Source: Ignavibacteria bacterium
GTDB taxonomy: Bacteria; Bacteroidota; Ignavibacteria; Ch128b
Direction of reading: 5' to 3'
Assembly: GCA_013177855.1 (NCBI GenBank)
Contig: JABLYA010000001.1
Coordinates: 1,901,573 to 1,965,572, forward strand
DNA: 64,000 bases
Shown here: in pieces, positions 29,241 to 40,761 of the stretch
How the letters are laid out: every line of letters starts with the position of its first letter
Numbering within the stretch: the stretch's first letter is position 1
The notes under the pieces: model-generated
What the model was told of the DNA's origin: nothing
Databases searched by the model: none
The model's input: only the letters and a program-made list of their open reading frames with translations
Position numbers and translations under genes: made by a program

Positions 29241-30443
29241 ATGGATTTAATTACTAAAATCGTTTTCTGTATTCTTTTCATTCCTTTCTCTGTGATTTTA
29301 TTTTATGAAATTATTCTATTTGCCTTAGCTTTATTCTTAGATGAGAAATCATCTCAATCTGAGAGGAAAAGAAAATTTTTAATTTTAATCCCAGCTTATC
29401 GAGAAGGGGAAATTTTAATTTATTCTTTAGATGCACTTGAAAAAATTATTTATCCCAAACATCTTTTCGATGTTGTACTGATAAATGATCAATGTGACGA
29501 TAGAGTTATTTCGAAATTGAGAAATAAAATTAAAGTTCTTGATGTTTTATTATCATCTCATTCAAAAGCTGAATCACTTAAAGAAGCAATTGAACTTGCA
29601 AATGGTTATAATTTTGTTGTAATTCTTGACGCAGATAATATTGTTCATCCTGACTTCTTAATTGAACTGAATAACTCAATAACGAAAAGCACAAAAGTCA
29701 TTCAAGGTTTGCGATTACCGAAAAACCTGAATTCGACTTTTGAAAAGATCGATGCAATAACAGACTATGTTTACAATCAACTTGATCGCCTGATTCCTTC
29801 AAAGTTAGGCTTATCAGGAACTTTAAGCGGTTCCGGTTTTGCAATTGAAACTAATCTATTTCGTGACTTAATACCATTGATTCAAACCAAAGGTGGATTT
29901 GATAAAATTCTTCAGTCGGAACTTTTACTTAGAAAAATTCCAGTTGAGATTTGCAGTAAAGCTATTATATATGATGAGAAGATAGGTTCATCAAAAAGTT
30001 ATTTAAAACAAAGAACCCGCTGGCTTTATTATCATTTCTATAATTCAATAAAATATGGCTTAAAATTGTTGGTTAAAGGGATTTTGAATTTCAAATTCGA
30101 TCAAATTCATATTGGATTAATAAGCCTCAGACCGCCATTGAATTTCATCTATTTCATATCTCTGATTTTAATAATTATTGGTTACTGGATTTGTTTACTT
30201 TGTTCAATTATCCTTTTTATTCTTTTGCTGATTTTTACACTAGTCCTTTCAAAAATATTGAAAGAAAACAAAGTCTTATCAGTCAAATTAATTTTATCAC
30301 TTCCATTAATATTTATTAACCAGATTTTTTCTGTGATTAAATTTCGAGAAGCAAAAACTGATTCATTAAAAACAGAGCATCACAAATCAAGGTCCATTGA
30401 AGAAATCTTACAAAGTCAAAAGTCAAAAAGGAGAGATGAGTAG
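29241..30443 (+). CDS. Membrane glycosyltransferase, GT2 family (processive type)
   Basis: 400 residues. An N-terminal membrane helix (about 4-32), a GT-A domain (about 45-270) and two or three C-terminal helices (about 300-375). The nucleotide-sugar site is visible as 'LINDQCDD' and the DxD-type 'VVILDADNIVHPDF'. The C-terminal 'QRTRWLYYHF' matches the Q-x-x-RW motif found in processive polymerases such as cellulose and hyaluronan synthases. It likely extends a polysaccharide at the inner membrane using a UDP- or GDP-sugar. It is the first gene of a cluster whose members overlap or nearly touch, with GT4, flippase, kinase and regulator genes following. The exact sugar is unknown. Confidence 0.88.
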   Translation: MDLITKIVFCILFIPFSVILFYEIILFALALFLDEKSSQSERKRKFLILIPAYREGEILIYSLDALEKIIYPKHLFDVVLINDQCDDRVISKLRNKIKVLDVLLSSHSKAESLKEAIELANGYNFVVILDADNIVHPDFLIELNNSITKSTKVIQGLRLPKNLNSTFEKIDAITDYVYNQLDRLIPSKLGLSGTLSGSGFAIETNLFRDLIPLIQTKGGFDKILQSELLLRKIPVEICSKAIIYDEKIGSSKSYLKQRTRWLYYHFYNSIKYGLKLLVKGILNFKFDQIHIGLISLRPPLNFIYFISLILIIIGYWICLLCSIILFILLLIFTLVLSKILKENKVLSVKLILSLPLIFINQIFSVIKFREAKTDSLKTEHHKSRSIEEILQSQKSKRRDE

Positions 30444-31566
30444 TTACAATATTTTATACATAATTAGACAGGCTGAATTTGGTGGCGGAGAAACTCACTT
30501 GAAGTATATTTTTGATTCAATTAGTAGGGTTCAATTCAAACCTGTTCTGGTTAGTTTAAGCTCGGGTTTTCTTAGTGAATATGTTCAATCAATAGGAATT
30601 AAGTTCTATCTTTTATCAAAAAAGAGAAAAGATTTTCTTTCAAATATTTTAAGAATCATAAAAATTATTCGAACTGAAAAAATAAATTTAATTCATGCTC
30701 ACGGAACTAAAGGCGCCGCTCTGGCTTTACTTCCCTCTATACTTACTGGGAAAAAATTAATTTATACCGTACACTCCTGGTCTTTTCATTCTGAAATGAA
30801 TTCGATTAAAAATTTTTTGCGAAAGTTGATCGAAAGAATTATTTGTGCTTTTGCTCATAAAGTAATTTTGGTTTCCCAGAGTGACTTTGAAAAAGGGGAC
30901 TTTGTAAATCCATCTAAAAAGCTGTTAATTAAAAATGGAGTGGATACTTTCGAATTTTATCCAGATAAAAATTATAAACTTCGTTCAGAACTTGGTTTTA
31001 GCGATAATGATTTTGTCATTGGTTACTTTGCTCGACTCACACATCAGAAGAACCCGTTTTTTGTGATTGACTTAATTCAAACACTAAATAAGAATGATTC
31101 TGATAGTGGAAAATCATATAAGCTTTTAATAATCGGTGATGGGGACTTAAAAGAAAAAATCATAGACGAAATAGAAAAAAGAAATTTGAACAGCGTTGTA
31201 AAAATTTTAGAACCTTCTTTTGAAATTAAAAAATATTTACATGCAATTGATTGTTATGTTCTACCATCTTTCTGGGAGGGAATGCCTTATGGCGTTTTAG
31301 AGGCAATGTCTTGCGAAATTCCAGTTGTTGTTTCGAATATTCAAGTTATGAATGAAATTATCGAAAATGGAGTAAATGGCTTTTGTGAAAATTTAAATGT
31401 TGAAAACTTTGCAAGAAGAATAATTGAACTTTCAAGAGACGATAAGCTTCGTTCGAAAATTGGTGCTAATGCCAGAAGAACAATTGAAAAAAATTTTAAT
31501 ATTGATTTACAGATTCAAGAGCTTTACAAAATTTATGAGAAATTGAAGATCAATGACCGAAATTAA
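30436..31566 (+). CDS. Glycosyltransferase, GT4 family (GT-B fold)
   Basis: 376 residues from the ATG at 30436, which has AAGGAG just upstream; it overlaps the previous stop by 8 bases. N-terminal Rossmann half begins 'NILYIIRQAEFGGGETHL', with the Gly-rich acceptor-side loop of GT4 enzymes and 'LIHAHGTKGAALAL'. The C-terminal half begins 'FVIGYFARLTHQKNP' and has the retaining-GT E-x7-E element in 'SFWEGMPYGVLEAMSCEIPV'. It is expected to add a sugar from an NDP donor to a lipid-linked oligosaccharide at the cytoplasmic face of the membrane. An alternative ATG at 30397 lies inside the previous gene and would add unconserved residues. Confidence 0.92.
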   Translation: MSSYNILYIIRQAEFGGGETHLKYIFDSISRVQFKPVLVSLSSGFLSEYVQSIGIKFYLLSKKRKDFLSNILRIIKIIRTEKINLIHAHGTKGAALALLPSILTGKKLIYTVHSWSFHSEMNSIKNFLRKLIERIICAFAHKVILVSQSDFEKGDFVNPSKKLLIKNGVDTFEFYPDKNYKLRSELGFSDNDFVIGYFARLTHQKNPFFVIDLIQTLNKNDSDSGKSYKLLIIGDGDLKEKIIDEIEKRNLNSVVKILEPSFEIKKYLHAIDCYVLPSFWEGMPYGVLEAMSCEIPVVVSNIQVMNEIIENGVNGFCENLNVENFARRIIELSRDDKLRSKIGANARRTIEKNFNIDLQIQELYKIYEKLKINDRN

Positions 31567-32938
31567 AAAATACTGGCTGCCAAATGGTGTTTACGCATTT
31601 CTGATTAACGCTGTCCTGTTTATTTCAGGGTTTGCAGGGTTTGTGTTGCTGGTGCGGTTTTATGATAAATCACAATTTGGTGCATGGGCATTATATCTTG
31701 CCGTGACTTCTTTTGCTGATGTTGCTCGAGCAGGCTTTGTTACAAATGCACTTGTAAGATATGCATCAACGCAGGAAACAAAAAGTGAATACTCAAAAGT
31801 TTTGAGTGCATCACTATTCCTGCACATTTTATTTACAATGATTTTAATGCTGCTTATTTACCTTATAGCGCCAATTGTTGGTAGAATCTGGTCAAGTTAT
31901 GAGTTTTACAAATTGTTGATGTACTACCCAATATATGCATTCTGTCAGATTCCATTTCTTTACTTTTCTGCAATAGAACAAGCAAATCTCTCATTTAGAA
32001 ATCAATATTACAGCAATTTGTTACGCAACACTCTTTTCATTGGGATGATAGCTTACATTGTGTTTTCAAAGTATAATTTTCCTGTTTATCATTTACCTTT
32101 CCTTCAATCTCTTGCTGTTATTATAGGTGGAGTTTATTTAATGATTGCAAATAGAAAGACTATACAGATCTCAAAAGAGATTGACTTGAAATGGCTTAAA
32201 AAATTAATCGATTTTGGGAAATATGTTTTCGGAAGCAATGTTGTTTCAATTCTTTTCACAAATATTGACCAAATTTTGCTTGGATATTTTTTCAATACAA
32301 AAGTTGTTGCCACATATAATACTGCAATGCGAATTGGAAATTTTTCAGATATCCCGATGACTTCGGTTGCGTCAGTTGTTTATCCAAAATCAGGACAAAG
32401 ATTTCAAATTGTTGGCAACAAAGGTTTAAGGCACTTGTATGAAAGGTCTGTCGGGTCAATTCTTGCATTTGTAATTCCTGCTTTGATTGTACTTGAAATC
32501 TTTGCTGAACCAATAGTAAAATTTATCGCAACCGATGCCTATTTAGATACAATTCCGGCGGTTTACATTATTCTGCTTTTCAGCTTGTTCAAACCTTTTA
32601 TAAAATATTTTGGGATTACAGTTGAATCGTTGGAGAAACCGCATTTCAATTTTAATTTAATGATAACTCTTTTATTGTTTAATTTGATTTTAGATTTGTT
32701 TTTAATACCAAAATATAGCCTTGTTGGAGCCGCCTTTGGCAGCTTGTTTTCACTTATAATAGGTATGATTATAAGTTTAGCGATATTAAAGAAATTACTT
32801 GATGTTAGAGTAAAAAGAATTTTTAAATATACATTCAGTTTTTATATTGAGGCGCTGGAGTTTATAATTTTCTTCAATGAGTATAAGGATTCTTTTGAAG
32901 AAAAAATTAAAAAAGAACACAGCGATGAAAACATTTGA
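31553..32938 (+). CDS. Polysaccharide flippase (Wzx / MATE-like, oligosaccharide export family)
   Basis: 461 residues with 12 or so membrane helices; begins 'YWLPNGVYAFLINAVLFISG' and 'VRFYDKSQFGAWALYLAVTS', characteristic of the polysaccharide-synthesis membrane protein family in the MOP superfamily. It likely flips lipid-linked repeat units to the periplasm. It overlaps the GT4 gene by 14 bases, and the following kinase gene starts 14 bases before its stop. That tight packing ties flippase and signalling genes into one transcript. No Wzy polymerase is obvious in the window, although the GT2 at 29241 could act processively instead. Confidence 0.88.
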   Translation: MTEIKKYWLPNGVYAFLINAVLFISGFAGFVLLVRFYDKSQFGAWALYLAVTSFADVARAGFVTNALVRYASTQETKSEYSKVLSASLFLHILFTMILMLLIYLIAPIVGRIWSSYEFYKLLMYYPIYAFCQIPFLYFSAIEQANLSFRNQYYSNLLRNTLFIGMIAYIVFSKYNFPVYHLPFLQSLAVIIGGVYLMIANRKTIQISKEIDLKWLKKLIDFGKYVFGSNVVSILFTNIDQILLGYFFNTKVVATYNTAMRIGNFSDIPMTSVASVVYPKSGQRFQIVGNKGLRHLYERSVGSILAFVIPALIVLEIFAEPIVKFIATDAYLDTIPAVYIILLFSLFKPFIKYFGITVESLEKPHFNFNLMITLLLFNLILDLFLIPKYSLVGAAFGSLFSLIIGMIISLAILKKLLDVRVKRIFKYTFSFYIEALEFIIFFNEYKDSFEEKIKKEHSDENI

Positions 32939-34061
32939 TTTAATAAAAATTCTAAACGAGGGAGTTAAAGATTACGATATGATTATTCTCACTGATAAGA
33001 CCGGAAAAATCGAACTCTACAATAAAGTTTTATCTCAATTATGTAATTCGGCGAATAAAGATGAGATTTTGCTTCAGGATGTTAAAATTGATCAGTTATT
33101 TAAACCTGATAAAGGTGAGTTTAATACTGTTTTTAATTCGCTGGAAGAAAGTGCACAGTATAATGGAGTTTTGAATTTTACATTGAGCTATAACCAGCAA
33201 ATTCCATTTGATGTGAAAGCTTACAAAGTAAACGGGGAGATAAATCAAAATTTTAGATATGTATTTCTCTTTAAGCTCAAAGAGATAACTGATATCGAAA
33301 AAGATCCACTTGAGCAAAAAAATTTCATTAAAGTTTTGGATAAATCTTCTTCATCAAAAGTCGATTTAATAACTTCTTATGAAGAACTAGAAAGATTGAA
33401 AGAGGATTTTCTATCAAGTGTTTCCCACGAATTAAGAACACCACTTGCTTCAATAATTGGTTTTGCTGAAACATTGAAAAATGATCCCGATTTACCAAGA
33501 GAAATTTACAAAGAATTTTTAGATATCATATTAAATGAAGGTAAAAGACTTGCCGCTACGATTAACGATTTGCTTGATGTATCTCAATTATATAGAGGAA
33601 ATGCATCTCTTCAATTAAAAAATGTTGAGTTACAACAGATTCTAACCCGTGCTTATGAACAGTTCAAACCACTGGCTGCTGGTATTGAGTTTGGAATTCA
33701 ATTACAGGAAAAACCAATTTTCATTCAAGCTGATGAAAACAAGCTGCAACAGGCAATAAACAATTTGATAAGTAACGCAATTAAATTCACCCCCAAAGGC
33801 GGAAAAGTGACAATCTCTCTTTACGAAACAAAAGATAATTACTTAGTTGAAGTCAGAGATACAGGTTATGGAATTCCAGAAAAAGATAAAGAAAAAATTT
33901 TTGACAGATTTTATCGAGTTGAAAGACCTGGTTTGGAAATACGAGGAGTGGGACTCGGTTTATCAATTACAAAAAAAATTCTGGACTTGCACGGTTACAA
34001 GCTCGAGTTTGAAAGTGAAATTAACAAAGGTTCAACATTCAAAATTTTAATCCCGAAGTGA
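32925..34061 (+). CDS. Cytoplasmic PAS-domain histidine kinase
   Basis: 378 residues from the ATG at 32925; an ATG at 32877 gives a basic, unconserved extension. A PAS-like domain (about 8-115, 'MIILTDKTGKIELYNKVLSQ') precedes HisKA with H168 in 'SSVSHELRTPLASIIGFAE' and a HATPase with 'NNLISNAIKFTP', 'RDTGYGIPEKD' and 'GVGLGLSITKKI'. There are no membrane helices, so it senses a cytoplasmic cue or another protein. It is followed directly by a receiver (2 bp gap) and an NtrC-type activator, the likely phospho-relay partners, and all sit between the flippase and a glycosyltransferase. It probably links envelope polysaccharide synthesis to that cue. Confidence 0.9.
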   Translation: MKTFDLIKILNEGVKDYDMIILTDKTGKIELYNKVLSQLCNSANKDEILLQDVKIDQLFKPDKGEFNTVFNSLEESAQYNGVLNFTLSYNQQIPFDVKAYKVNGEINQNFRYVFLFKLKEITDIEKDPLEQKNFIKVLDKSSSSKVDLITSYEELERLKEDFLSSVSHELRTPLASIIGFAETLKNDPDLPREIYKEFLDIILNEGKRLAATINDLLDVSQLYRGNASLQLKNVELQQILTRAYEQFKPLAAGIEFGIQLQEKPIFIQADENKLQQAINNLISNAIKFTPKGGKVTISLYETKDNYLVEVRDTGYGIPEKDKEKIFDRFYRVERPGLEIRGVGLGLSITKKILDLHGYKLEFESEINKGSTFKILIPK

Positions 34062-34063
34062 TT

Positions 34064-34438
34064 ATGAAAAAAACTGTTTTATTAGTTGAAGACGAGAAAC
34101 CAATTCAAGTTTTAATTACTCATCATCTTGGTAAACTCAATTACGATGTGGTTGTTAAAGAGACTGCTGAAGCTGCAATTGAGTATTTAAAGAAAAGTAA
34201 CGCTCTTCCAGATTTAATAATAACCGATGTACTTTTACCTGGAATGAATGGAATTAATTTTTGTCGTCTTGTAAAGACTGATCCAAAAACACTCGATATA
34301 CCAGTAATAATCTTATCATCTGTGGATTATGATTTTTACCGGCAGGGCGCTGAAGCTTCTAATGCGGATTATTTTATGACTAAACCTTTTCGAATTAAGG
34401 ATTTTATTAACATCATCAATAAAATAATAACGGTATGA
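34064..34438 (+). CDS. Single-domain response regulator (CheY-like receiver)
   Basis: 124 residues; one receiver domain and no output. All key residues are present: 'LLVEDEKP' acidic pocket, phospho-acceptor Asp in 'LIITDVLLPGMNG', 'VIILSS' switch Ser, and 'FMTKPF' Lys. The gene starts 2 bases after the kinase stop and its own stop overlaps the next gene's ATG by 4 bases (ATGA). It probably takes phosphate from the kinase at 32925 and either passes it on or binds a target such as the flippase or glycosyltransferases. An upstream GTG at 34058 is in frame but less likely. Confidence 0.88.
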   Translation: MKKTVLLVEDEKPIQVLITHHLGKLNYDVVVKETAEAAIEYLKKSNALPDLIITDVLLPGMNGINFCRLVKTDPKTLDIPVIILSSVDYDFYRQGAEASNADYFMTKPFRIKDFINIINKIITV

Positions 34439-35832
34439 TTATGGAAAAGAAATTAATTTTCTTAATTGATGATGAAGTTAATTTCACTCGTTTGATGGAA
34501 CATTGGATTAAAGAAAGATGGAACTACAGATTAAAAATATTTAACTCAACAACTGACTACTTGAACTATGAGGGCGAAGATCCGGATTTAATTCTTCTTG
34601 ACATTATGCTTCCAGGCGATTATAACGGCGTTGAATTGCTGAAAAAAATCAAATCGCAAAATTCTGATTTACCTGTGATTATGCTTTCAGCTCAAGGGAA
34701 TGTTGATGTTGCAGTTGAAACAATAAAACTTGGAGCTTTCGATTATTTCTCCAAACCAGTTGATTTACAAAAGCTCGAGATTTCAATTCGAAATGCAATT
34801 AAAAATTATGAATTACAAAAACGAGTGAAGTCATTATTAGAAGAGCAAGAAAAGATTTATAAGTTTGATAATATCATTGCTATTGACGATAAAATGCAAG
34901 AAGTTTTCAAATTGATGAAAAAAGTTTTGAATACAAATGTAAATGTTTTGATATATGGTGAAAGTGGAACTGGTAAAGAGTTGATCGCACGAGCAATACA
35001 CGCAAATAGTGATAGAAAAGACAAACCATTCGTCGTTGTTAACTGTGCATCAATTCCAAAGGATTTGCTTGAAAGTGAATTGTTTGGTCACGAAAAAGGT
35101 TCATTCACAGGCGCTTTTCAAAGAAAAATTGGGAAGTTTGAACTGGCTGATGGTGGAACAATCTTTTTAGACGAAATCGGTGAACTTGAATTGAGTCTTC
35201 AGGCTAAACTTCTAAGAGTAATTCAGGATAAAACTTTTGAAAGAGTTGGTGGAAACGAACCAATTACAACAACTGCTCGAATCATCTCGGCAACAAATAA
35301 AGACTTAAAAAAAGCTGTTGATGAAAAACTTTTTAGAGAAGATTTGTATTACCGACTTTCAACTTTCCCAATTCTTGTTCCTCCGCTTCGTGAAAGAAAA
35401 GGCGACATTGTAGTTCTTGCTGAACATTTTGTTAAGAAATTTTCTGAAGAAGCGAAAATTCAAACTCCATCAATTACAAAAGAAGTTATTGAAATTTTTC
35501 TAAGATATCCCTGGCCAGGAAATGTCCGTGAACTAGAAAATGTTTTGCAGCGAGCTGTTTTAATTTGTGATGATAATAAAATTAGAGTTAAAGACCTCCC
35601 ATTATCTCTTCAAGCTTATCTTCCTGAAGCATTGACTGGAGAAGTCTCCACAAAAATTGTCAGTGAAAGTCATGAAATTATTCCACTTGAAAAAATCAAA
35701 GAGAATGCTCTGAGACATGCTTTGAAAGTGACAAGGGGAAATATTCAGGAGGCTGCAAAAAGATTACAAATTGGAAGAGCAACAATTTATAGAATGATGA
35801 AGGAATACAACATTAAACCCGAAAAAGAATGA
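34435..35832 (+). CDS. NtrC-family sigma-54-dependent response regulator
   Basis: 465 residues (463 if the ATG at 34441 is used). Receiver domain (about 5-120) with 'LIDDEVNF' and phospho-acceptor in 'LILLDIMLPGD'. AAA+ sigma-54 activator domain (about 150-375) with Walker A 'GESGTGKE', the sigma-54-contact loop 'GSFTGA' (standard GAFTGA with A to S), and 'GGTIFLDEIGEL' Walker B. Fis-type HTH at the C-terminus ('GNIQEAAKRLQIGRATIYRMMKEY'). It activates transcription from -24/-12 promoters after phosphorylation. A candidate such promoter lies at 28737, ahead of this same cluster, so autogenous control is plausible. Its stop overlaps the next glycosyltransferase start by 4 bases. Confidence 0.95.
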   Translation: MIMEKKLIFLIDDEVNFTRLMEHWIKERWNYRLKIFNSTTDYLNYEGEDPDLILLDIMLPGDYNGVELLKKIKSQNSDLPVIMLSAQGNVDVAVETIKLGAFDYFSKPVDLQKLEISIRNAIKNYELQKRVKSLLEEQEKIYKFDNIIAIDDKMQEVFKLMKKVLNTNVNVLIYGESGTGKELIARAIHANSDRKDKPFVVVNCASIPKDLLESELFGHEKGSFTGAFQRKIGKFELADGGTIFLDEIGELELSLQAKLLRVIQDKTFERVGGNEPITTTARIISATNKDLKKAVDEKLFREDLYYRLSTFPILVPPLRERKGDIVVLAEHFVKKFSEEAKIQTPSITKEVIEIFLRYPWPGNVRELENVLQRAVLICDDNKIRVKDLPLSLQAYLPEALTGEVSTKIVSESHEIIPLEKIKENALRHALKVTRGNIQEAAKRLQIGRATIYRMMKEYNIKPEKE

Positions 35833-37070
35833 ATTTACTTGAATTAATTTTCTGGTTATCATTCTTCTTTATTTTTTATACTTTTATTGGTTATCCATTG
35901 CTGATGTATTTTTTATTTAGATTTGAAAGCATTCGCTATTTTATTCGTATTCCAGAAGATGCTGGTAAAGTTTTCATTAATCCAGAGTTAGGAGGCAAAA
36001 TAATTTTCGATCAGCGCTTTTCAGCAAAGGAGTTTACTCCATTTGTTTCGATGATTATAGCAGCTTACAATGAAGAGAAATTTATCGAAGAGAAAATTAA
36101 AAATTGTCTGGAGCTAAATTATCCGTCAGAAAAAATTGAATTCCTTTTTGTGACAGACGGTTCTAATGATAAAACTCCTGAGATCGTTCAAAAATATTCT
36201 GAGACTTATCCTAATGTAAAATTATTTCATCAATCAGAAAGACAGGGAAAGTTGAAAGCAATTAATCGCGTGGTTCCCTATGCAAAAGGTGAAATTCTGG
36301 TTTTTTCGGATGCGAATTCATTCTATAATAAAGATGCCATCAGTTTTCTTGTTAGACATTTCCAATTTGAAAAAATAGGCTGCGTGGCTGGCGAGAAAAG
36401 AGTGATCTCTAAAGATGGAAAACTCGAAGCAGAAGGTCTATACTGGAAATATGAATCTTTCTTGAAAAAACTTGATTCTGAAATCTTTTCTATTGTTGGA
36501 GCTGCTGGTGAGATTTTCGCTATAAGAAAAGATTTATTTCTCGAATTGCCTGAAAATACAATCAACGAAGATTTTGTCATTACAATGAATATTGCAGCGA
36601 AGGGTTATCGAGTAGTTTATGAACCAAAAGCCTATGCCGTCGAAGAACCGACAAAATCAATCTTCGAGGAATTTAAAAGAAGAATACGAATTTCCACTGG
36701 AGGTTTACAGGCAATCTTTTTATTGAAAAATCTTTTTGATATAAGGAAATATAAATTTCTGACATTTCAATTTATTAGTCATAGAATTTTAAGATGGACT
36801 ATTACTCCGCTTTCATTATTACTAATTTATATATCGAACTTACTGATATTCTTAAAGAGTGATTTAATTTTCTACAAAATAACTTTTTATTTTCAGACTG
36901 TATTTTATTGTTCAGCTTTAATTGGTTTTTTAGCTGAATTGGTTAAAATTAAAATTAACTTTTTTTATTTGATTTTTTCATTCATCTTAATGAATTTTGT
37001 TTCAGTCATAGCATTAATAACATATCCATTCAGAGCCAGAACAAACATCTGGCAAAAAGTCGAAAGGTAA
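35829..37070 (+). CDS. Membrane glycosyltransferase, GT2 family
   Basis: 413 residues. An N-terminal helix (about 5-27), a GT-A domain with 'FVSMIIAAYNEEKFIEEKI', 'LFVTDGSNDKTPEIVQ' and the DxD-like 'ILVFSDANSFYNKDAI', a catalytic-base region 'TINEDFVITMNIAAKGYR', then 'RRIRISTGGLQAI' before three C-terminal helices (about 320-400). This resembles chain-synthesising GT2 enzymes of exopolysaccharide clusters. It starts 4 bases inside the sigma-54 regulator's stop. With the GT2 at 29241, the GT4 and the flippase it makes up the sugar-assembly part of the cluster. Confidence 0.9.
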   Translation: MNLLELIFWLSFFFIFYTFIGYPLLMYFLFRFESIRYFIRIPEDAGKVFINPELGGKIIFDQRFSAKEFTPFVSMIIAAYNEEKFIEEKIKNCLELNYPSEKIEFLFVTDGSNDKTPEIVQKYSETYPNVKLFHQSERQGKLKAINRVVPYAKGEILVFSDANSFYNKDAISFLVRHFQFEKIGCVAGEKRVISKDGKLEAEGLYWKYESFLKKLDSEIFSIVGAAGEIFAIRKDLFLELPENTINEDFVITMNIAAKGYRVVYEPKAYAVEEPTKSIFEEFKRRIRISTGGLQAIFLLKNLFDIRKYKFLTFQFISHRILRWTITPLSLLLIYISNLLIFLKSDLIFYKITFYFQTVFYCSALIGFLAELVKIKINFFYLIFSFILMNFVSVIALITYPFRARTNIWQKVER

Positions 37071-37091: not shown

Positions 37092-37430
37092 ATGAATTTT
37101 GTTGAACAAAAAGTAGGTGATGTCCTTGTAATAGGAATAAATTTAGCAAGGGCTACTCTTCAGGAAGCAGATTCATTCAAACAATTACTTTTTAATGCAA
37201 TCGAAAAAGGAGAGAGAAAAATTGTTGTTGATTTTTCTCAATCTGATTTTGTCGATTCTACATTTCTGGGGGCACTTGTTGTAAGTTTAAAGAGGATGAC
37301 GCAAGCTGGCGGTGATATAAGACTTGTCGGTTTTCGTCCGGCAGTTCGATCGATGATGGAATTGACGAGAATGCATAAAGTTTTTGATTGTTATGAAACT
37401 GTTCAGGATGCAGTTAAAAGTTTTGGATAG
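37092..37430 (+). CDS. STAS-domain anti-sigma-factor antagonist (SpoIIAA/RsbV-like)
   Basis: 112 residues from the ATG at 37092, which has GAGGTG 4 bases upstream. A single STAS domain: 'VLVIGINLARATLQEADSFK', 'KIVVDFSQSDFVDSTFLGAL', 'AGGDIRLVGFRPAVRSMMEL'. The phospho-site of SpoIIAA/RsbV proteins is the Ser/Thr after the conserved Asp; here it is S56-T57 in 'FVDSTFLG', so phospho-control is possible. A PP2C-type phosphatase sits two genes downstream. Such antagonists bind a kinase/anti-sigma protein (RsbW/SpoIIAB type), but none is encoded in the window. It may regulate the adjacent fusion protein instead. Confidence 0.9.
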   Translation: MNFVEQKVGDVLVIGINLARATLQEADSFKQLLFNAIEKGERKIVVDFSQSDFVDSTFLGALVVSLKRMTQAGGDIRLVGFRPAVRSMMELTRMHKVFDCYETVQDAVKSFG

Positions 37431-37432
37431 TA

Positions 37433-39202
37433 ATGAAATGTTTAATTTTAGGTGCAGGAATTGGTAAAAGATTACAGCCGCTTTCAAATGAAATTCCTGC
37501 ACCAATGCTTCCAATACTCAATAAGCCTCTAATACTTTATATCTTAGAGCACATCAAAAATTTTGGAATAAACGAGATAAAAATATCTCTGTATCACTTA
37601 CCTGAAGTGATTGACGCTTATCTTGGTGAAGGCGAAGAGCTTGATCTTAAAATTTCTTATTCGCTTGAAAAAGATTTATTGGGAACAGGTTATGCAGTCA
37701 AAAGAATCCCATCTTTTTTTGATGATACAATTCTTATTCACTATGGAAATGTTTTAAGCAACATTGATATAAATGAATTTTACCTATTTCATAAACAAAG
37801 AAAAAGCATCTTTACCTACGCAGTACTAGAGAACCGAATCGCAAAAGAGACTCCCGAAATACTTCTCGATCAAAAATCTCAGGTAATAAATTATAAATAT
37901 CGAGAGAATGAAAGTCATTACCCATTCATACCTGCCGGTATATTTCTGGCTGAGAAAGAAATTCTTGACTTTATTCCCTCAAATAAAAAATATTCTCTCG
38001 AAGAAGAGCTTTTAAATGAAATAATCGAGAAAAAACTTCCCGTGTTTGCTTTTATCCACAAAGGAGATTACTACAAAATTCAATATCCGAAAGATTTACT
38101 TGAAATTAATCTTCAATTATTGAAATTTTTATCGGTTGCTGAAGGGAAATTAGTCTTTGGCTTTAAAGATGGGGTTAATAAAGAAGTTTTGAATTCGATC
38201 TCTTCCCCAATTTTTATTGGCGAAAATTCGGTAATCAATAAAAATGTCTCAATAAAAAATCCTGTTGTAATTGGTGATGATGTAATAGTTGATGAAGGTG
38301 CAACTCTATCCAATTCTTTAATCTTGAACAATACTTACATTGGTAAAAATTTAGAAATTGAAAATTCAATTGTTTTCAAAAATCTTTGCATCAATACAAG
38401 AAATGATTACGGTTTTTATGTAACAGACTCATTTATCCTGGCTCCAGTTGTAAAAGTTAAACTTGCTGATAAAATTAAAGAGATTTTGTTTAGGCTGATT
38501 GATATAATTTTATCTTCACTTGGATTAATTTTGCTTTCACCAATCTTACTCTTAATAGCTTTGGCAATTAAAATTGATTCAAAAGGTCCAGTATTCTTTA
38601 AATCAAAAAGAGTCCAGAAACCTCAATTAATTCAACAGAGTGATAAATGGTATCTTTACGAGCCTGAAAAGTCAGTTTATTATTATAAATTTAGAACAAT
38701 GAGAGTAGACAATTTTAGTAAAGATGAATTTCGTAAAGAAAACATATATAACGAAGGACCTTATTTTAAATTAAAATCTGACCCAAGGGTAACAAGAGTC
38801 GGAAAATTTCTGAGAAAGACAAGCTTAGATGAGCTACCTTTATTATTTAATGTTTTGAAAGGTGATTTAAGTCTTGTAGGAGTTTGGGGACTTCCACCCG
38901 ATGAAGCTCAAATTTTGCTTGAAACAGGAGTCACGAAGGAACTATATCAACTTAAAGATACAGCTCAAATAAGATTTAAAGGAAAGCTCGGACTTGCTGG
39001 TTACTGGCAATCAAGAGGAAGATCAGAACTCACGGCTGAAGAAAGGGCAATTCATGATGCAATTCAGGCTCTTGCGGATATTAAAGATGCAAAACTTAAA
39101 TCAAGATTGGGAGATTATTCAAAAGCTAATTCACTTCGTGGTTATATTTCTTTAATTTTAGATACAATTAAATCGGTTATAAAAAGAAAAGGTGCTTATT
39201 GA
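37433..39202 (+). CDS. Fusion protein: degenerate nucleotidyltransferase + left-handed beta-helix + initiating phosphoglycosyl transferase
   Basis: 589 residues. Domain 1 (about 1-235) has the sugar-1-phosphate nucleotidyltransferase fold ('LILGAGIGKRLQPLS', 'MLPILNKPLILYILE') but the signature Lys of 'PKPM' is A23, the metal-binding Asp of 'GDxL' is N106 ('HYGNVLSNID'), and the 'DIGTP' Asp is K215 ('YYKIQYPKDLL'). Domain 2 (about 245-335) is a hexapeptide beta-helix. Domain 3 (about 350-585) is a monotopic phosphoglycosyl transferase: re-entrant membrane hairpin 'IILSSLGLILLSPILLLIAL', 'FKSKRV', 'KFRTMRVDN', and the catalytic Asp-Glu D466-E467 in 'TSLDELPLLFNVLKGDLSLV'. It should load the first sugar-phosphate onto undecaprenyl phosphate. 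Only the last domain looks catalytically intact. Its 3' end overlaps the phosphatase gene by 1 base. Confidence 0.9.
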   Translation: MKCLILGAGIGKRLQPLSNEIPAPMLPILNKPLILYILEHIKNFGINEIKISLYHLPEVIDAYLGEGEELDLKISYSLEKDLLGTGYAVKRIPSFFDDTILIHYGNVLSNIDINEFYLFHKQRKSIFTYAVLENRIAKETPEILLDQKSQVINYKYRENESHYPFIPAGIFLAEKEILDFIPSNKKYSLEEELLNEIIEKKLPVFAFIHKGDYYKIQYPKDLLEINLQLLKFLSVAEGKLVFGFKDGVNKEVLNSISSPIFIGENSVINKNVSIKNPVVIGDDVIVDEGATLSNSLILNNTYIGKNLEIENSIVFKNLCINTRNDYGFYVTDSFILAPVVKVKLADKIKEILFRLIDIILSSLGLILLSPILLLIALAIKIDSKGPVFFKSKRVQKPQLIQQSDKWYLYEPEKSVYYYKFRTMRVDNFSKDEFRKENIYNEGPYFKLKSDPRVTRVGKFLRKTSLDELPLLFNVLKGDLSLVGVWGLPPDEAQILLETGVTKELYQLKDTAQIRFKGKLGLAGYWQSRGRSELTAEERAIHDAIQALADIKDAKLKSRLGDYSKANSLRGYISLILDTIKSVIKRKGAY

Positions 39203-40761
39203 TGGAACAACCAAAACAAATTCTTGTCATAGATGATGATGCTGCAATGAGAAAATTAATCGGCTTTAATCTGAAGAAAGCTGGTTATGAAGTAATTGAA
39301 GCCGATGGACCAGGACAGGCATTTGAACATCTCGAAAAAACAACTCCTGATCTTGTTCTGTGTGATATTATGATGAGCGGAATGGATGGATTTACATTTT
39401 GCGAAAAGGTTAGAGCACAGGAAAAATACAAAGCTTTGCCTTTTATCTTTGTTTCTGCAAAAAGCTCACTTGCTGATAAGGAAAAAGCTGTTGCTCTCGG
39501 TGCTGATGATTACATAACCAAACCATTTATTCTTGATGAATTGCTTTTAAAGATAAGAGCTTTACTGAAAAGATCAGAAATTTACAAAGCTTATGGTGCA
39601 AAAAAAGTTATTGAAGAAATCACCCAAACCGCAAAGCCAAAGATTTTGATTGTTGATGATGATAAAGTTTTAACCAAGTTACTAGCCGCTGCTCTTGAAA
39701 AAAATGATTTCGAAGTAAAAGTTGCTCACAACGCCTTTGATGGATTTAACATTGCTAAGGAATTTAAACCTGATTTAATCCTATCGGACATATTAATGCC
39801 CGAAGCTGATGGATTTGAATTTAGAAATCTTTTAAGTGCTGATAAAGAATTGAAATCTATTCCATTTGTATTCCTTACTTCCAAGACAGAAGAGCAAGAT
39901 ATCTTAAAAGGTTATGAATATGGAGTTTATGATTATGTCCTTAAGACCGCTGGAATGAATGTGATTACAGCAAAAGTTAAAGCAATTGTAGAATCACTTC
40001 AAAAGGAAAGGAAAAAAGTTGTTGACGAAATTCAACATGCTGCCGAAACAATTAAATTAAAAGTTGTTCCAGACGCACCACCAAAATTAGATGGTTTTTT
40101 AATTGAACAATGGCATCAGACATATCAAGGAATTCCTGGCGGAGATTTTCTTGATTACATTAAACTTTCTTCTGATACTTATGCAATAGCATTTGGTGAT
40201 GTAATGGGTAAAAAATGGGGTGCCTGGTATTTTGCATTTGCTTATGCAGGTTATATTAGAAGCGCAATTCGATTTGTGGCTCAATCGGGTGAAGAACATT
40301 CTCCAGCGAAAATTATGGAAAAGCTGAATCGAGCAATTTATCAGGATGCGAAAGTTTCTGAAATCTTTGCAACTCTTTCCCTTATCGTTATCAATGTTTT
40401 GAAAAATGAAATTAAATACACCGGCGCCGGTGATTTACCTTTGCTGGTTAAAAAAGCTAAAACAGGCGAAATTCTTAAAATTGAATCCGAAGGATTACTT
40501 CTCGGTTTTCTTGAAGATAGTGAATATGAAGATATTAATATTAAACTCGATTTAAATGATGAAATTGCAATTTTCACTGACGGAGTTGTAGAAGCAAAAA
40601 ATGAAGATGGTGAGCAATTTGGACATACTCGAATTCAGGAAGTGTTCCAAAATTATGAAGGCGATTCATTTTTGCGGGCATTAAAAGAGAGACTTCTTCA
40701 ATTCACAAATATGAAATTAGATGATGATACAACGGCTTTATGGATTAAGAGAATCAGTTAA
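39202..40761 (+). CDS. Double-receiver PP2C (SpoIIE/RsbU-type) phosphatase
   Basis: 519 residues from the ATG at 39202 (a TTG one codon earlier is not needed). Two tandem receiver domains: 3-125 ('ILVIDDDAAM', 'LVLCDIMMSGMDG', 'YITKPF') and about 149-275 ('ILIVDDDKVL', 'LILSDILMPEADG'), both with phospho-acceptor Asp. A PP2C domain (about 300-519) keeps the metal-binding motifs: 'IPGGDFLDY', 'IAFGDVMGKKWGA', 'IFTDGVVEAKN' and 'DDDTTALW'. Such enzymes remove phosphate from STAS antagonists; the STAS protein at 37092 is the natural substrate. The receiver pair probably takes phosphate from the cluster's kinases, linking two-component input to partner switching. Confidence 0.92.
   Translation: MEQPKQILVIDDDAAMRKLIGFNLKKAGYEVIEADGPGQAFEHLEKTTPDLVLCDIMMSGMDGFTFCEKVRAQEKYKALPFIFVSAKSSLADKEKAVALGADDYITKPFILDELLLKIRALLKRSEIYKAYGAKKVIEEITQTAKPKILIVDDDKVLTKLLAAALEKNDFEVKVAHNAFDGFNIAKEFKPDLILSDILMPEADGFEFRNLLSADKELKSIPFVFLTSKTEEQDILKGYEYGVYDYVLKTAGMNVITAKVKAIVESLQKERKKVVDEIQHAAETIKLKVVPDAPPKLDGFLIEQWHQTYQGIPGGDFLDYIKLSSDTYAIAFGDVMGKKWGAWYFAFAYAGYIRSAIRFVAQSGEEHSPAKIMEKLNRAIYQDAKVSEIFATLSLIVINVLKNEIKYTGAGDLPLLVKKAKTGEILKIESEGLLLGFLEDSEYEDINIKLDLNDEIAIFTDGVVEAKNEDGEQFGHTRIQEVFQNYEGDSFLRALKERLLQFTNMKLDDDTTALWIKRIS

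Follow-up and report, generated by a model that had tools for sequence, protein, structure and literature searches.

A phosphoglycosyl transferase fused to a non-catalytic nucleotidyltransferase domain and linked to STAS and PP2C genes in Ignavibacteria

Introduction

How the initiation of bacterial polysaccharide synthesis is switched on or off post-translationally is largely an open question. A locus of an Ignavibacteria bacterium (assembly GCA_013177855.1, contig JABLYA010000001.1) raises it in a particular form: within the 64,000-nucleotide stretch of DNA that was analyzed (hereafter the window), a single gene, FUS (37433-39202, plus strand, 589 aa), joins a nucleotidyltransferase (NTase) domain, a left-handed beta-helix (LbH), and a phosphoglycosyl transferase (PGT), and lies between genes for a STAS protein and a PP2C phosphatase. 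What is a sugar-nucleotide synthase that appears to have lost its catalytic residues doing in front of a polysaccharide-initiating enzyme? A sequence-only reading of the gene had proposed that the dead domain exerts allosteric control over an active transferase, as a sensor of NDP-sugar or lipid carrier levels, with the STAS and PP2C genes as possible controllers. Neither an NTase-PGT fusion nor a STAS protein acting on a PGT was found described in the literature.

Results and discussion

Domain make-up of the fusion and its operon

Residues 1-232 of FUS (37433..38128, plus strand, as for all features below) form the NTase domain, matched by the Pfam family NTP_transferase (PF00483) over residues 3-228 with 72.5 bits against a cutoff of 21.2. 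They are followed by a hexapeptide LbH domain at residues ~233-325 (38129..38407; PF00132/PF25084, match at residues ~254-323) and by a monotopic PGT domain at residues 353-589 (38489..39199), which Bac_transf (PF02397) matches over residues 354-583 with 133 bits against a cutoff of 27. An AF2 model of the NTase and LbH parts reached pLDDT values of 85-95 over most of its length (91-96 across most LbH residues), and its top Foldseek matches were tlr0611 (8x7s), VTC1, and GMPPA/GMPPB, with the VTC1-KJC2 and GMPPA/GMPPB complexes among them. The Pfam score, the model, and these matches bear out the sequence-only reading that the NTase fold is intact in outline, and the structure prediction that it had proposed as a check returned a GMPPA/GMPPB-like NTase-LbH fold.

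The gene order in the window is GT2a-GT4-Wzx-HK-RR-NtrC-GT2b-STAS-FUS-RR-RR-PP2C. The polysaccharide genes GT2a, GT4, and a Wzx-like flippase (29241..32938, all recognized by Pfam), which have homologues in most of those fusion loci whose flanks are long, are followed by an HK, a single-domain RR, and an NtrC-type regulator (32877..35832; the HK from Pfam, the other two from reading the open reading frames), and by the GT2 glycosyltransferase GT2b (35829..37070; PF00535). The STAS protein (37092..37430, 112 aa; PF01740) carries a phosphorylatable Ser56 in DFVDSTFLG, and its stop codon lies 2 bases from the FUS start. Its start is given as GTG 37086 in the list of open reading frames, probably two codons early; we prefer the ATG at 37092, since it fits all relatives. 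FUS in turn overlaps by 4 bases with the gene for a receiver-receiver-PP2C/SpoIIE phosphatase (39199..40761; PF00072 twice, PF07228), a protein with 73-92% identity within f1, the family of the window genome. A promoter and terminator scan gave nothing informative.

Loss of NTase catalysis

For comparison of the catalytic positions, we assembled a reference set of 44 NTases from ~840-aa proteins of the same phylum and 8 intact fusions. K23, D106, E156, K157, P158, and D215 are invariant in all 44 outgroup NTases and in all 8 intact fusions. In the window protein, the signature Lys is replaced by A23, the metal Asp by N106, and the second metal Asp by K215 (the DIGTP Asp of the sequence-only reading), as that reading had stated; the EKP motif (Glu156/Lys157), whose loss it had overlooked, is also gone, with Arg157 in place of the Lys. 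The alignment of homologues that it had called for shows that this non-catalytic state is conserved, with A23, N106, R157, and K or R at 215 in 6/6 f1 genomes, which rules out a sequencing error or a single-genome oddity. That the NTase is nevertheless catalytic is hardly credible: the fold is intact, Arg13 is kept, and Arg157 is a conservative change, but both metal Asp residues, the signature Lys, and the EKP motif are altered together in all six genomes, and compensating residues can be rejected, as the alignment shows no conserved Asp near the lost sites. The window genome has five further NTP_transferase genes. Many genomes of the phylum encode ~840-aa proteins in which an NTase of this type is intact (L016-L038, L053-L079); among the NTP_transferase genes of the window genome, none has that length.

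The losses are unevenly distributed along the domain. Scored over positions that are conserved in active enzymes, f1 retains 21/31 at residues 1-130 and 3/25 at residues 137-228 (Fisher p=3e-5). From general knowledge of RmlA/GMPP structures, we take the former to be the nucleotide side and the latter the sugar-phosphate side. On the nucleotide side, G9, G11, R13, G84, and T85 are retained in 6/6 f1 genomes. Because it is the sugar-phosphate and metal side that has suffered the losses, with the nucleotide side retained, the proposal of an NDP-sugar sensor is weakened: these residues argue against an intact NDP-sugar pocket, and the domain may possibly still bind a nucleotide. Sensing of lipid carrier levels found no support either.

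Repeated loss within a persisting fusion

All relatives were drawn from one phylum sample. Every f1 genome (6/6) carries the full-length fusion, with identities of 54-65%; overall, it was found in 18 genomes of the class-wide sample (n=391) and in G399, a genome of another class. Outside f1 the fusion is patchy, with full PGT matches in 6/29, 5/80, and 1/79 genomes of families f6, f22, and f10, respectively. In the alignment, the NTase occurs in three states: dead (f1), intact, with all hallmark motifs (G082, G115, G182, G188, G200, G236, G336, G351), and degenerate, each time differently (G055, G158, G192, G363, G399). One genome, G363, has two fusion copies (L095, L096), both with a degenerate NTase, and in the fusion of G399 (L098:9125-10681) the middle of the NTase, the EKP region, is deleted; the PP2C there has no receiver domains. 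Homologues that restore the Lys and Asp, which the sequence-only reading had named as evidence against it, thus exist in the wider class (the 8 intact fusions) but not within f1, where 6/6 are dead. Taken together, this makes the loss lineage-specific rather than ancestral.

The order of events was read from a tree of PGT domains in which 14 non-fusion PGTs served as the root. In this tree, the fusions form one clade (100/99) and f1 another within-group clade (99/97), with NTase-lost members scattered among intact ones; for example, G158 and G055 group with the intact G115, G188, and G082 (98/96). Parsimony gives four changes of NTase state, or five losses when regains are disallowed, and the well-supported branches force at least two changes. 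In the NTase-domain tree, the degenerate members cluster together as the long branches of the tree, and we therefore prefer the PGT-domain tree, which rules out a single ancestral NTase loss in all fusions. In other words, the coexistence of dead, intact, and degenerate forms points to a bifunctional NTase-PGT in which NTase function was lost repeatedly, the two domains remaining fused.

The dead domain is not simply eroding. Within f1, the ratio of NTase to PGT divergence is 0.97-1.51, and between the window genome and G001 dN is 0.226 for the NTase and 0.255 for the PGT (dS is near saturation, which makes the ratios rough). Since divergence and dN are similar in the two domains, the dead NTase is under constraint, and we reject the idea of a relic or decaying domain. 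The findings are most simply read as a regulatory role in place of a catalytic one. The earlier proposal of allosteric control stands as far as a dead but constrained domain goes, and lacks support where it specified a sensor. Such constraint also fits a plain structural role.

A PGT with its own signature

The bifunctional monotopic PGTs known as Bi-PGTs (PMC10942596) also join a PGT core to another sugar-pathway domain, and the intact relatives of FUS, with partner motifs preserved in 8 of them, would be ordinary members of that class; in f1, however, the partner domain is dead, and the PGT differs too, having neither the PRP Arg nor the re-entrant-helix Asp. The domain retains DX12P (D357/P370), K419, R461, and the dyad D466-E467, the Asp-Glu pair that the sequence-only reading had recorded, and among the fusions D466, E467, R461, and DX12P show little or no variation. 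At two other positions the fusions depart from known PGTs. The PRP Arg, part of a motif described as uridine-binding (PMC10653937), is a Trp (W485, in V-W-G) in 18/18 aligned fusions versus Arg in 14/14 non-fusion PGTs, and the conserved C-terminal-helix Asp (PglC D168, WbaP D458), which has been called strictly conserved in monoPGTs (PMC12802240), is a Tyr (Y571) in 18/18. A DNA pattern for SLVG[IV]W[AG]LP was found in 3/395 phylum genomes, in every case in a fusion. Of the features that mark PF02397 members, the domain therefore has a score above the cutoff, DX12P, and the dyad, and lacks the PRP motif and the C-terminal-helix Asp. The family thus has a signature of its own, and it may use a donor nucleotide other than that of the PGTs known so far.

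Are these replacements compatible with activity? The full-length AF2 model rendered the PGT poorly, so a PGT-only model was built with more alignment rows; it reached a pLDDT of 87 and matched PglC (E 1.6e-9) and WbaP (E 5.9e-6) in Foldseek. The Lys of KFRTM is retained in f1 (K419) and is Val in the other 12/18 fusions, a reciprocal pattern (38465-39199; L085-L098) in which the dead-NTase f1 proteins keep the Lys and the others, NTase-intact ones included, have Val. The PGT half could also be non-catalytic, making the whole protein a regulatory pseudoenzyme of EPS synthesis. Trp485 and Tyr571 in 18/18 fusions and the Lys-to-Val change in 12/18 would fit this, but the near-invariance of D466, E467, R461, and DX12P, the PglC-like fold, the Lys419 of f1, and a locus that shows no other PGT make it very unlikely. 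We therefore regard the PGT, from its residues, as likely to be active, but not assuredly so, because the PRP Arg and the conserved Asp are replaced in all 18 fusions; the earlier description of an active transferase holds for the dyad and is qualified by W485 and Y571. A search of genome contigs with the full protein returned only two partial PGT relatives. The window genome has a 664-aa frame (L006; G000:C1:2370727-2373972) whose match to the PGT family is confined to the second half (positions 87-178).

An N-terminal accessory part before the catalytic core, thought to dimerize or bind nucleotide, is likewise present in WbaP, EpsZ, and other large monotopic PGTs, and the accessory DUF of WbaP has been implicated in nucleotide/UDP-sugar binding (PMC10942596). 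In FUS, by contrast, PF00483 and LbH stand in place of the N-terminal transmembrane four-helix bundle and PF13727. The accessory part of FUS is comparable to GMPPA, a dead enzyme that regulates GMPPB (PMC11228364), and to the KONJAC proteins, which activate GMP (PMC11066809): these are dead NTase-LbH family members that regulate an enzyme, and their complexes are among the top structural matches. Both, however, regulate an active NTase in trans, whereas in FUS the dead domain shares one chain with a transferase. FUS is probably a polysaccharide-initiating membrane enzyme with a dead enzyme domain in front that serves as a control handle and not as an enzyme.

Linkage to STAS and PP2C genes

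If the dead domain is a handle, the neighboring genes are candidates for what holds it. GT2b-STAS-FUS recurs, accompanied by a PP2C gene, in almost every one of the 18 fusion-genome loci, the exceptions being loci at contig ends (G004, G188, and the second copy of G363); the PP2C gene lies just downstream in f1 and G399 and upstream of GT2b in the others. The Asp-Ser pair of the STAS protein is invariant in 19/19 aligned FUS-linked sequences, and the loci accordingly show the elements of a partner switch, with a phosphorylatable-Ser STAS protein and a PP2C linked to polysaccharide genes. In the ten f6/f22 loci in which a gene separates STAS from FUS (G182 excepted), that gene encodes an RsbW-like HATPase, and OEP, Wzz-type, GT, and Wzx genes follow downstream. 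These RsbW-like proteins (L089:8725-9300 and nine counterparts) keep the N-box Asn, and most copies miss the DxGxG Asp; judging from these residues, the protein may itself be a pseudokinase. The f1 loci hold no RsbW-like kinase gene; two short HATPase_c_2 genes lie elsewhere in the window genome.

The origin of the f1 genes complicates this picture. The closest relatives of the window STAS and PP2C are found in fusion-free NtrC-STAS-PP2C operons of f22, f10, and f26 (24/24 loci), eight of which were read at length and have no GT2b or FUS beside STAS. In the STAS tree, the f1 proteins and those of the fusion-free operons split from the FUS-linked STAS proteins of other families (100/99); this topology was read directly and is unaffected by a wrong group label (FUS_f1) on the f10 sequence of G363 in the STAS and PP2C trees. 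These operons have a conserved HK-NtrC-STAS-RR-(RR)-PP2C order without a PGT (L142-L165, L166-L171, L173, L174), and in f10/f26 a pair of ~490-aa and ~340-aa genes adjoins them (L169, L170, L173, L174). The f1 module must therefore also be read as a captured HK-NtrC signaling operon, and the main STAS/PP2C target may be another protein, because elsewhere this lineage sits with HK-NtrC and no PGT. STAS and PP2C might on that account regulate NtrC-dependent transcription, an anti-sigma factor, or GT2b, and merely be co-transcribed with the fusion. We consider this unlikely: GT2b-FUS is linked in f6/f22 and in another class to a different STAS lineage, which has a PP2C and an RsbW-like gene of its own, and two independent associations favor a functional tie. 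The STAS and PP2C genes can thus be retained as possible controllers in that their linkage recurs, and a direct contact between STAS and PGT is what we infer from it.

A tentative mechanism

We propose that FUS is an EPS-initiating PGT, switched by STAS, in which the pseudo-NTase/LbH part acts as a docking or regulatory module, a reading whose prospects we put close to even, on the lower side. In a bifunctional ancestor, the fused NTase would have made a nucleotide sugar; the window lineage would then have lost both metal Asp residues, the signature Lys, and the sugar-phosphate motif, leaving a non-catalytic platform of pseudo-NTase and LbH for oligomerization, docking, and possibly nucleotide binding in front of a presumably active PGT. 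PP2C would act on Ser56, and the unphosphorylated STAS protein would bind the fusion and switch EPS initiation on or off, with the pseudo-NTase/LbH part as its docking site or gate. The missing RsbW-like kinase gene in the f1 locus and the replacement of the PRP Arg and re-entrant-helix Asp in 18/18 fusions count against this reading.

A simpler view, which we find somewhat improbable, makes the dead NTase-LbH an oligomerization scaffold only, with an LbH dimer holding two PGTs and no sensing or switching. The LbH and the fold core are well conserved and well modeled, the second half has few of its ligand-side residues left, and WbaP dimerizes through its accessory domain (PMC10942596), but a scaffold alone leaves the conserved STAS/PP2C link unexplained, as well as the nucleotide-side residues kept throughout f1.

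For the STAS switch, there are partial precedents. In Myxococcus xanthus, the response regulator EpsW activates the PGT EpsZ (PMC12802240), so that a signaling protein controls an EPS-initiating PGT post-translationally; EpsW is a single-domain response regulator, whereas a STAS protein, with a PP2C phosphatase acting above it, is the candidate that gene linkage puts forward here. In SypA/SypE of Vibrio fischeri and HmpU/V/W of Nostoc, a phosphorylatable-Ser STAS protein controls polysaccharide, as the genes suggest here, and the Ser is residue 56 in SypA and in the window protein alike; the output targets of SypA and HmpV are unknown (PMC8256260). They differ in that the STAS gene here is directly coupled to that of a PGT fusion and in that the window locus has no kinase gene.

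Conclusions

In its widest form, which we regard as doubtful, our proposal is that the fusions are an undescribed PGT family in which a fused synthase was repeatedly turned into a pseudoenzyme that serves as the receptor of a STAS partner switch; the nucleotide site would have been rebuilt, with Trp for the PRP Arg, and STAS phosphorylation would directly control initiation post-translationally. With Trp in place of Arg in all of them, the fusions stand out as a PGT subfamily, and it deserves to be determined which donor nucleotide they use. Given that SypA and other STAS proteins that control polysaccharide have no known target, the coupling of a STAS gene to a PGT gene across families matters. 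Because the fused domain occurs in nature both intact and dead, experiments can tell its catalytic role from its regulatory one.
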